Part shown: positions 3 through 21,017 of the stretch, in pieces
Layout of the letters: the number at the start of each line of letters is the position of its first letter
Position numbering within the stretch: the first letter of the stretch is position 1
Assembly (NCBI GenBank): GCA_018267055.1
Contig: JAFDZF010000189.1
Span: forward strand, 1 to 32,621
DNA: 32,621 nt
Source: Bacteroidota bacterium
Lineage (GTDB): Bacteria; Bacteroidota; Bacteroidia; Flavobacteriales_F; PHOS-HE28
Direction: 5' to 3'
Position numbers and translations under genes: made by a program
Notes under the pieces: generated by a model
The model's input: the letters and a program-made list of their open reading frames with translations, nothing else
Told to the model about the DNA's origin: nothing
Databases searched by the model: none

Positions 3-2612
<2,610 letters not shown>

Positions 2613-8169: not shown

Positions 8170-8275
8170 CCGGTCGGCGGTCAGCGCCCAGGGGGGAGTG
8201 ACCAGCGGTCGGCAACCGACCACCGGTGGCCATCCACCCACTGACCACTGTCCACTATCCGCCGGCTACTGCCGA
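8170..8275. repeat. Intergenic low-complexity dyad array
   Basis: The 207-base gap between the divergent M16 and malate synthase-like genes is built from variants of GGTCGGC, GGTCAGC and CACTGACC words on both strands. It includes a clean hairpin at 8207-8221 (GGTCGG, loop CAA, CCGACC). The word AGCGGTCGGC (8204-8213) recurs at 12912-12921 and, inverted, at 12956-12965 and 15280-15289. No convincing promoter of the TAnnTTTG type was seen for either flanking gene. Confidence 0.5.
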
Positions 8276-8337
8276 CATTCGTACCTGCTTCCGTGAACCC
8301 AGCACGGCACTTGTGCGTAGTACGCGACCCGGAAGCC

Positions 8338-9873
8338 ATGCTCACGACCACCGCCGTCATGGAAGACCGCCTGCTCACGTCCGATGTGGTGAAGCTCGTC
8401 CAGGAGCTCACGCACCGGTTCGGCCCGCGGCGGAAAGAGGTGCTGGAGGCGCGTGCGCTCCGGCGGGCCGCCTTCCAGGAGGGCGCCGTGGCCCGGCTGG
8501 ACGAGACGGCCCACATCCGGCAGGCCCAGTGGAAGGTGGACCCCGTGCCCGTGGAGCTGCTCGAGCGCCGCGTGGAGCTGCTCGGCGGCTGCACCCGGCC
8601 CGAGATCATCCAGGGGATGAACGCCGGGGCCAAGAGCTTCGTGGCCGACCTCTGGAACATGTCGCTGGACGACCCCGCCAGCGTGCTCCGCGCCCACAAG
8701 AACCTGGAGCGCGCCGCCGATAACCGCCTCGCCTACGTGGATAGCGCGGGCGACCGCGTGCGCGTGAACCCCGGCAGCATCACCCGCCTGATGATGGCGC
8801 CCCGTCCCCTGCCCGTGCTCGAAGGCTCGGTGCGCATGGGGGGCGAGCCCGTACCGGCATCGTTCTTCGACCTGGCGGTGTACGCCAGCTACAACGCGGT
8901 GAAGCTGCGCGTGCGGCAGGCCGGCGTCTACCTCTACCTCCGCGGCGTGCACGGCCACCTGGAGGCCCGCCTGTGGCGCGAGCTCTTCGAGCACATCGAA
9001 GAGCACCTGTCGCTTCCCCGCGGCACCTTCCGCGCCACGGTGATGCTGGACTCCCTCGCTTCCGCCCTGGAGGCCGATGAGATCCTCTTCGAGCTCACCC
9101 ACCACTCGGCCGGCCTCTCGCTGGACCCGCAGGCCTATGCGGCCGACCATGTGGCCCTCTTCAGCGCCCCGGACCGTCCCGTGCTGCCCGACCGCGAGCG
9201 CATCGGCCTCAACGAGCATTTCCTGCGCAGCGTGAGCCTGATGGCCATCGCCGTGTGCCACCGCCGCCAGGCCCACGCCATCGGCGCGCCCGCCTTCGTG
9301 CTGCCGCCCGACGACCAGGGCAAGCTGAAGGCCGGCTACCTGGAGATGATCGCCGACAAGGAACGCGAGGCCGTGGACGGCCACGACGGCACGCTCGTGG
9401 GCCATCCCGGCCTGGTGAACCCCGCGATGATGGAGTTCAACAAGAGCATGCCCAAGTCGCACCAGATGTACTACGAGCGCCCGGACAACACCGCGCCGAG
9501 CGACCTGGTGCAGCGCCCCCAGGGCCCCTTGAGCACCGACGGCGTGCTGGGCGCCATCCGCACCGTGCTGCGCGCCCTGGTGTACCGCACCGCCGGCCAG
9601 GCCGTGATCGTGCAGGGCGGCCGGTTGCACGACCGTTCCTCCGTGCGCCTGTCCACCTTGTTGCTCTGGCAGTGGACCCGCAGCTCCTATGGCTCCATCA
9701 CCGATACGGGCCTGGAGATCCACGACGACATGGCCCGCTACCTGATCAAGAAGGAAGGCGACAAGCTCTTCCAGCACGAAGAGCCCGCGCTGAAGGAAGC
9801 GGGCAAGGCCGCCGTGGAGAAGCTGACGGCCACTGCCCTCCGGGCGGAAGTGCCGCCCGACCTGCTGGGATAG
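8338..9873 (+). CDS. Divergent malate synthase A-like protein
   Basis: 511 residues from the ATG at 8338; a GTG at 8293 is also in frame. The overall layout follows malate synthase A: GMNAGAKSFVADLWNMS (93-109), SFFDLAVYASYNA, HLEARLWRELF (207-217), EADEILFELTHHSAGL (245-260), DGHDGTLVGHPGLV (347-360), DRSSVRLSTLLLWQW (432-446). Length is close to the family norm of about 530. Several family signatures are changed. The usual FMADFEDS reads FVADLWNMS, IETL reads LDSL, and the GRWDYIFS block after the GL at 259-260 is replaced by DPQAYAADHVALF, losing the Asp expected as a metal ligand. MEDAATAEISR reads LHDRSSVRLST, keeping one Asp. It may be an altered-substrate or weak enzyme; no isocitrate lyase gene is nearby. 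Confidence 0.75.
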   Translation: MLTTTAVMEDRLLTSDVVKLVQELTHRFGPRRKEVLEARALRRAAFQEGAVARLDETAHIRQAQWKVDPVPVELLERRVELLGGCTRPEIIQGMNAGAKSFVADLWNMSLDDPASVLRAHKNLERAADNRLAYVDSAGDRVRVNPGSITRLMMAPRPLPVLEGSVRMGGEPVPASFFDLAVYASYNAVKLRVRQAGVYLYLRGVHGHLEARLWRELFEHIEEHLSLPRGTFRATVMLDSLASALEADEILFELTHHSAGLSLDPQAYAADHVALFSAPDRPVLPDRERIGLNEHFLRSVSLMAIAVCHRRQAHAIGAPAFVLPPDDQGKLKAGYLEMIADKEREAVDGHDGTLVGHPGLVNPAMMEFNKSMPKSHQMYYERPDNTAPSDLVQRPQGPLSTDGVLGAIRTVLRALVYRTAGQAVIVQGGRLHDRSSVRLSTLLLWQWTRSSYGSITDTGLEIHDDMARYLIKKEGDKLFQHEEPALKEAGKAAVEKLTATALRAEVPPDLLG

Positions 9874-9971: not shown

Positions 9972-10247
9972 ATGCCTCCCGCCTGGACCCCCTGTTCGGA
10001 CCGGCTTCCCGCCGATGGCGCGCGCGTGCTTTGCTGGCTCCCCCGGAACACCGTGTACCTGCCCGGCAAGACCGGCGCCACCGAGGAGCGGAACGCCGTG
10101 GTATTGAAGTTCGCGGAGGACTGGTTCATCAAGAACCCCAGCAAGACCGGCCGGGCCACCCACCGCCATTTCTGGCTGGGCGAAGGCAGCAGCAACCACT
10201 TCTTCGAGGAGGTGACCCACTGGATGCCGCTGCCGGAAGCCCCCTAG
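9972..10247 (+). CDS. DUF551 domain protein
   Basis: 91 residues. The sequence opens W-T-P-C-S-D-R-L-P-A-D-G-A-R-V-L-C-W and closes with VTHWMPLPEAP; these two blocks are the hallmark ends of the DUF551 family. No function is established for that family, which is often seen in phage and accessory DNA. I chose the ATG at 9972 because the DUF551 opening begins four residues later and a GATCTTGCG promoter-like box lies 4 bases upstream. It converges on the FKBP gene across a bidirectional terminator and has no partner gene. Confidence 0.8.
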   Translation: MPPAWTPCSDRLPADGARVLCWLPRNTVYLPGKTGATEERNAVVLKFAEDWFIKNPSKTGRATHRHFWLGEGSSNHFFEEVTHWMPLPEAP

Positions 10248-19164: not shown

Positions 19165-19914
19165 TCAGACGGGCATCTTCACCAGCTTGCCATCGCGGAG
19201 CATGGGGATGGCGCGGGCCTGGTCGGGCGTGAGGCAGTACTTCACGTCGTCCAGCAGGTTCAGCTCTTTCAGGCGCTTGCGGCGCGGCGCGGCCTTGAGG
19301 ATGCTCATCACGTTGTCGCGCGCCGCCAGGTAGAGGTACTTGCTGGCGATGCTGCTGTCCTCCTCCACCCCGAACTTGCCGCTCTCCAGCAGCCGGTCCA
19401 TCACCGCCCCGGCGAACACGCTGTCCTCCAGGCTGAACTTGTCCTTCCAGCCCGAGCACAGCAGCAGGATGTTGTCGTTCTGCTGCAGCAGCCAGTCGGT
19501 GAGCGCGGTGAGGTTGAGGAAGGAGCCGATGACCAGCTTGCGCGCATCGCGGGCGAGGTTGATGGCCCGCGTGCCGTTGGTGGTGGTCATCACGATGGTC
19601 TTGTCGTGCAGGTCCATGGCCTTGAAGGCCAGCGGCGAATTGCCCACGGCGAAGCCGTCCACCACTTCGCCGTTGCGCTCAGCCGCGGCGATGTAGCCGT
19701 CGCGCCCGATGTACTGCTGGGCCTCCTCGATGGTGGACACGGGGATGATCTCCTTGACCCCGTGCTCGAAGGCGGCGACCATGGCGCTGGTGGCGCGCAG
19801 GATGTCGATGATGACCACGATGCCCATGTCGGGCCGGTACAGGGGGAACTGCCCCGGGAGGAAACAGGTCTCCACCCGGAAGCTGTAGTCGGCGTTCTGG
19901 CTGATGGCCTTCAT
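19165..19914 (-). CDS. comB: 2-phosphosulfolactate phosphatase
   Basis: 249 residues from the ATG at 19914. The block [33 protein letters not shown] near the N-terminus, with [16 protein letters not shown] and [13 protein letters not shown], is the ComB signature. ComB removes phosphate from 2-phosphosulfolactate in coenzyme M synthesis in archaea; bacterial copies are widespread and may serve sulfolactate or sulfonolipid metabolism. The start overlaps the gcvT stop as ATGA (19911-19914), so translation is likely coupled. No comA or other sulfonate gene is visible nearby. Confidence 0.9.
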
Positions 19915-21017
19915 GCAAGGGCCTGGTAGAAGGGCAGCTTCACCACGGTGCCGCGCAGCTTCTTGCCGCGCACATCGATCCACAGGGTACTGCCCACGGC
20001 GCTGAGGGCGGTGGGCACGTAGGCCATGCCGATGGGCTTCCGCAGGCTGGGGGCCATGGTGCCGCTGGTGACCTTGCCGATCACGTTCCCGGCCTCGTCC
20101 ACCACGGGGTGGTCGTGGCGGGGGATGCCACGGTCCACCAGCTCGAAGCCGACGAGCTTGCGCTGCACGCCGCTCTCTTTCTGCGCTTTCAAGGCGGTGC
20201 TGTTGGTGAAGTCCTTCGTGAATTTAGTGATCCAGCCCAAGCCCGCCTCCAGGGGCGAGGTGGTGTCGTCGATGTCGTTGCCGTAGAGGCAGAAGCCCAT
20301 CTCCAGGCGCAGGGTGTCGCGCGCGGCCAGGCCGGCCGGCTTGATGCCATGGGCGGCGCCGGCGGCGAAGACCTTCTCCCAGATGTCGACGGCCGCCTCG
20401 TTGGGCATGTAGATCTCGAAGCCGCCCGCGCCGGTATAGCCCGTGGCGCTGATGATGACGTCCTTGTGCCCGGCGAACGTGCCGATCTTGAACGTGTAGT
20501 ACTCCATCGCCTTCAGGTCGACGTCGGTCAGCTTCTGCAGCGCCTCGGCCGCCTTGGGCCCCTGCACGGCCAGCAGCGACATCCCCTCGCTCCGGTCCTC
20601 CATGCGGACACCGCCGGTGTTGTGCTCGGCGATCCAGCTCCAGTCCTTCGCGATGTTGCCGGCGTTCACCACCAGCATGTAGTCCTCGGCGCCGATGCGG
20701 TACACCAGCAGGTCGTCCACGATGCCACCGGTGGCATTGGGCAGGCAGCTGTACTGCACCTTGCCGTCCACCAGCTTGCTCGCGTCGTTGCTGGTGACGC
20801 GCTGGATGAGGTCGAGCGCGCCGGGCCCGGAAAGGAAGAATTCGCCCATGTGGCTCACGTCGAAGACGCCCACGGCGCTGCGCACGGCGAGGTGCTCATC
20901 GTTCACCCCGGTGTACTGCACGGGCATGAGGTAGCCGGCGAAGGGCACCATCTTGGCCCCCAGGGCCTCATGGACGTGCGTGAGCGCGGTCTTTTTCAGT
21001 TCGGTCGTTGCGGTCAT
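19911..21017 (-). CDS. gcvT: Aminomethyltransferase (glycine cleavage system T protein)
   Basis: 368 residues, normal for GcvT. Landmarks seen are [65 protein letters not shown] (folate site region with the catalytic-type Asp), [17 protein letters not shown] and [21 protein letters not shown]. It transfers the aminomethyl carbon from H protein to tetrahydrofolate. The ATG at 21017 overlaps the upstream glycosyltransferase gene by 50 bases; since conserved sequence begins at residue 7, a later start is unlikely. I saw no glycine riboswitch upstream, nor gcvH or gcvP here. Confidence 0.96.

Follow-up and report, generated by a model that had tools for sequence, protein, structure and literature searches.

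The closest described relatives of the protein reported here are the malate synthases and the CitE-like enzymes, whose Mg ligands have been described as absolutely conserved (PMC3832036). In published structures, the equivalents of Glu250 and Asp278 of E. coli AceB are Mg ligands, while those of Glu119 and Asp120 hold Mg-bound waters (PMC3832036, PMC3112382). The Asp117 equivalent orients an Arg, the Arg168 equivalent is this substrate-binding Arg, and the Asp447 equivalent is the base (PMC3832036, PMC3112382). In addition, the Trp aligned with AceB Trp365 lies beside the aldehyde carbon of glyoxylate (PMC3112382). The CitE-like superfamily (malyl-CoA lyases, the haloarchaeal malate synthase and malyl-CoA thioesterase) has the TIM barrel, the Arg and a lid-domain Asp in common with our protein, which also carries a Pro at the AceB Met330 position that can be compared with Pro231 of the Haloferax enzyme (PMC3112382). 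However, CitE-like enzymes retain the Mg-binding Glu and Asp (PMC3832036), which our protein does not. They also lack the N-terminal domain of malate synthase A, which is present in our protein, a malate synthase A by sequence.

Family assignment and predicted fold

The malate synthase A-like gene with an altered active site occupies positions 8338..9873 on the plus strand of the window, by which we mean the whole 32,621-nucleotide stretch that was analyzed. It begins with an ATG at 8338 and encodes 511 amino acids with no internal stop; an antisense ORF running across it (8266-9777, minus strand) was taken to be a shadow ORF in high-GC DNA. The protein is a member of the Pfam MS_TIM-barrel family (PF01274; 159.4 bits against a gathering cut-off of 26.4), and its N- and C-terminal malate synthase domains score slightly under the Pfam cut-offs. 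Against TIGR01344, the NCBIfam equivalog for malate synthase A, it reached only 305.7 bits, whereas the curated cut-off, at 594.5, is about twice as high. Its nearest solved relatives are the malate synthase A enzymes of B. anthracis and E. coli. Compared with malate synthase A (AceB, TIGR01344; PDB 3CUZ, 3CV2, 3CUX), it shows 28-31% identity, the same length and the same three-domain fold.

The fold, with N-terminal, TIM-barrel and C-terminal domains, was predicted with confidence by AlphaFold2 from 41 sequences (pLDDT 92.3, pTM 0.93). VIA-align matched the model to 3cux with a Z of 51.9 and an rmsd of 1.6 Å over 490 aligned residues, with similar values for AceB, and Foldseek agreed with this match; since most rows of the alignment were canonical malate synthases, the agreement in fold is partly built in. 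A model made from only the four closest sequences was poor (pLDDT 46) and was discarded.

Active-site residues lost, kept and gained

Residues were numbered by ungapped alignment to AceB, with no gap between the flanking invariant residues. In this alignment FEDS corresponds to LWNM, IETL to LDSL and GRWDYIFS to DPQAYAAD. The initial annotation had described changes in these three blocks, with Asp in place of the Glu of IETL and Ala in place of the Asp of GRWDY. The block changes are borne out and are alike in all 30 genus members, and the alignment to AceB together with the published ligand roles indicates that the two metal positions, now Asp238 and Ala266, were read correctly. Acidic residues at both metal positions, named in that annotation as evidence against its reading, were not found in the sequence alignment.

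D238 (9049..9051, plus strand, as for all residues below) replaces the Mg ligand Glu250 of AceB (Glu427 of MsG); this position is Asp in 30/30 variant proteins and Glu in 33/33 canonical ones. A266 (9133..9135) replaces the other Mg ligand, AceB Asp278 (MsG Asp455), and the variant proteins have Gly (16), Ala (13) or Gln (1) there (n=30). Both original ligands are thus gone in all 30 genus members. The second-shell pair Glu119-Asp120, which holds Mg-bound waters in AceB (PMC3832036), is replaced by W106-N107 (8653..8658), and the Asp120 position is mostly Asn across the variant clade. AceB Trp365 is replaced by L353 (9394..9396), with Leu, Ile or Met in 30/30. In the canonical sequences, Glu119, Asp120, Glu250, Asp278, Trp365, Arg168 and Asp447 were all invariant (33/33). 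A shift of the alignment that would put D263 in place of Asp278 was ruled out, as D263 is Ala in 4/30. H313, five residues ahead of the AceB Met330 position, was set aside as a metal ligand because His also occurs there in 18/33 canonical enzymes.

In contrast to the Mg ligands, the Mg-water-holding Glu/Asp pair and the substrate-side Trp, three catalytic residues of malate synthase A are shared by our protein. D104 (8647..8649; AceB Asp117, hydrogen-bonded to the catalytic Arg in that enzyme, PMC3832036) is found in 30/30 variant and 33/33 canonical proteins, and R156 (8803..8805; AceB Arg168, MsG Arg338) in 30/30. The catalytic base, AceB Asp447, is kept as D432 within R429-L-H431-D432-R433 (9622..9636), again in 30/30; neither the kept base nor the kept Arg appeared in the initial annotation. 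On either side of the base, H431 (AceB Glu446) and R433 (AceB Ala448) are new and present in 30/30, with R429 in 28/30. Another new invariant pair, D270-H271 (9145..9150; 30/30), lies one helical turn past the lost Asp, with D270 replacing AceB Ser282, and AceB Met330 is changed to P318. There has also been drift in the CoA pocket, where AceB Thr95 is Ile or Leu in the variant and Pro369 is retained in about half of the clade. This suggests that CoA binding may have weakened.

The variant clade and its genomes

A search of the order yielded 45 genomes, all in the window's genus, 38 of them above the family cut-off. The variant set consisted of 30 proteins fetched from this genus and was compared with 32 other members of the class, all of which were canonical at the Mg-site, Arg and base positions. 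The presence of the same altered pattern in 30/30 genus proteins indicates that the changes are not due to chance or sequencing error. In a maximum-likelihood tree, the variant clade formed one side of a branch (support 100), its stem measuring 2.27 changes per column; the sister group is unsettled, since this was a quick tree and the program warned of long branches. A phylogeny had been proposed earlier as a check for changes shared by a whole clade, and this monophyly favors a functional change.

The wider phylum set was mostly canonical, with three divergent Bacteroidota homologues (L112, L126 and L134) also lacking parts of the site. Like the window clade, all three have lost the Mg-ligand Asp of GRWDY, but no well-supported branch groups them with it. 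The homologue of L112 (5086-6576, plus strand) is very divergent; it has lost FEDS, IETL and GRWDY and kept the base Asp, and no isocitrate lyase was found in its genome. In those of L126 (6766-8385, plus strand) and L134 (627-2228, plus strand), the GRWDY Asp is Asn and the base Asp is lost, whereas the window clade retains the base.

The variant clade is under purifying selection, as pairwise dN/dS between related members was 0.07-0.17 (one near-identical pair left out). None of the 30 proteins has an internal stop. Within the variant, the pocket blocks had a mean entropy of 0.76 bits and the other positions one of 1.22 bits, a difference that demonstrates constraint rather than catalysis because these blocks are also structural core. 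The pocket value was below that of 5000/5000 random position sets, and in the stricter circular-shift test 6/370 shifts were as low. Eight of the 18 conserved-but-different columns fall in the pocket blocks. The gene is missing from five genus genomes, with no remnant found in any of them, and is therefore dispensable. The variant was not found among viral contigs. About 51 IMG/VR contigs labelled viral (L141-L191) encode relatives of malate synthase A, either as host contamination or as carried genes. A search of anti-phage defence families gave no match.

The gene is the sole malate synthase homologue in the window's genome, which is estimated to be 99.5% complete. It had been suggested to be a paralogue, but this is not so in the strict sense, as no canonical copy is left in the genome. 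Isocitrate lyase, noted earlier as not adjacent, was found nowhere in this genome, and neither was any HpcH/CitE family member. The search for a second, canonical malate synthase and for isocitrate lyase, also proposed earlier, thus found neither and favors a functional change. Of the 45 genus genomes, 44 have no isocitrate lyase, and the single exception is of lower quality. In the class sample, by contrast, 49 of the 52 other genomes that matched malate synthase also had isocitrate lyase (compared by hand, with the degenerate G197 excluded), often adjoining the malate synthase gene. Without isocitrate lyase, the window protein is cut off from its usual pathway. The sole genus match to isocitrate lyase (L065, L066; G026:C235) has a locus GC of 0.61, near the 0.63 of the malate synthase-like locus in that genome, and contamination is therefore not shown. 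In one other genus (f48/g101; L074, L075, L076), the malate synthase has the canonical metal residues and isocitrate lyase gave no match.

Gene neighborhood

The locus has a conserved order of two M16-type peptidase genes (minus strand), the malate synthase-like gene, a DUF551 gene, and FKBP and alpha/beta hydrolase genes (minus strand). The 91-amino acid DUF551 protein (9972..10247, plus strand; PF04448, 44.8 bits) is encoded directly downstream and was considered a possible partner. Comparison of coordinates placed DUF551 directly after the malate synthase-like gene in 37/37 genus genomes in which both were found. However, an obligate partnership was rejected, since five genus genomes retain DUF551 but lack the malate synthase-like gene, and some class genomes with no malate synthase match carry DUF551 as well. 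The adjacency may reflect general synteny rather than a functional pair. The literature found on DUF551 is mainly on phages; the gene at this locus is chromosomal and conserved.

In some genus genomes, the same locus carries an AlkB-like gene, a member of the fatty acid desaturase (membrane desaturase/hydroxylase) family. In five genomes (L192, L193, L194, L195, L196) it takes the place of the malate synthase-like gene beside DUF551, and it precedes the malate synthase-like gene where both are present (L095, L096, L100, L101, L103, L105). A necessary link between the two was rejected, as the window genome has no AlkB-like gene. Elsewhere in the window, a secreted-type protein (93-2612, plus strand) that combines thrombospondin type 3 repeats with a Por secretion tail points to type IX secretion, and a glycine cleavage T-protein gene lies at 19911-21017 (minus strand).

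The bacteria of this lineage are uncultured, high-GC and of the Flavobacteriales type. Based on the fixed replacement of its Mg-binding residues and the loss of its metabolic partner, their malate synthase-like protein is probably a re-purposed enzyme rather than an ordinary malate synthase. The initial annotation had considered three possibilities, namely a different reaction, weak activity and a relative without catalysis. The departure from an ordinary malate synthase is supported by the clade-wide loss of metal ligands and the missing isocitrate lyase, which fit either another reaction or a non-catalytic role. The explanation that we consider best, with roughly even chances of being right, is a single-copy, vertically kept descendant of malate synthase A that has been re-purposed as a CoA enzyme without the canonical Mg/glyoxylate site. 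The re-purposing would have happened once, at the base of the lineage, removing that site and taking the protein out of any glyoxylate shunt. The enolization pair would remain, consisting of the general base Asp432 and of Arg156, which Asp104 orients. The retention of all three residues argues for the handling of an enolate or oxyanion, and an acyl-CoA or similar thioester is probably still bound. The new set of charged residues fixed around the pocket (D238, D270, H271, H431, R433 and mostly R429) may do the work of the metal through cationic side chains, or may hold a different ligand. Losing acidic residues from the metal site and gaining Arg and His by the base would balance charge without Mg2+. 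A more specific version, which we offer tentatively, is that the whole lineage has a Mg2+-free enzyme of malate synthase fold in which R429, H431 and R433 by the old base serve a reaction other than that of acetyl-CoA with glyoxylate.

Other explanations were weighed against the re-purposed CoA enzyme. A non-catalytic descendant, or pseudoenzyme, would perform no chemistry and use the fold to sense a ligand or to scaffold protein binding, perhaps together with the DUF551 protein. We regard this as rather unlikely, but the drift in the CoA pocket (AceB positions 95 and 369, the adenine-pocket Thr and Pro) keeps it alive. It also fits the loss of metal ligands that have been described as absolutely conserved in the superfamily (PMC3832036), the lack of a pathway partner and the DUF551 gene that always adjoins, and a conserved scaffold could likewise yield a low dN/dS. 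On the other hand, the catalytic Asp, the Arg and the Arg-orienting Asp are invariant, the pocket shows higher conservation than other parts of the protein, and its new residues are fixed rather than drifting. Nor is the pairing with DUF551 obligate, since that gene persists in genomes that lack the malate synthase-like gene and occurs elsewhere in genomes that gave no malate synthase match.

It seems improbable that the protein is a true malate synthase whose metal site has been rebuilt, with D238 and D270 or H271 binding a shifted metal and malate being made, perhaps with glyoxylate from another source. The loss of ligand Asp278 and second-shell Glu119, the change of Asp120 to mostly Asn, the loss of the Trp whose aligned counterpart sits next to the aldehyde carbon of glyoxylate (PMC3112382) and the lack of isocitrate lyase all argue against this reading. 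Nevertheless, Asp is strictly kept at the Glu250 position, the base and Arg are kept, and D270, a single helical turn away from the lost Asp, might in principle restore a metal site. The long stem branch and the five genus genomes without the gene might also suggest a decaying relic heading for loss. This is very improbable, considering that 30 proteins have no internal stops, dN/dS is 0.07-0.17, the new residues are fixed and no remnant was found where the gene is missing.

In conclusion, the finding is clade-wide and under selection. Within the malate synthase family it is best classed as a new variant, with the window protein best regarded as not a malate synthase A by function. Our search of open-licence papers found no account of this variant. 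Annotation pipelines that label the protein a malate synthase would wrongly assign half of a glyoxylate shunt to these bacteria. Further, a clade that retains the base and Arg but has consistently replaced the Mg ligands offers a natural test of metal-free Claisen-type or thioester chemistry on this scaffold.
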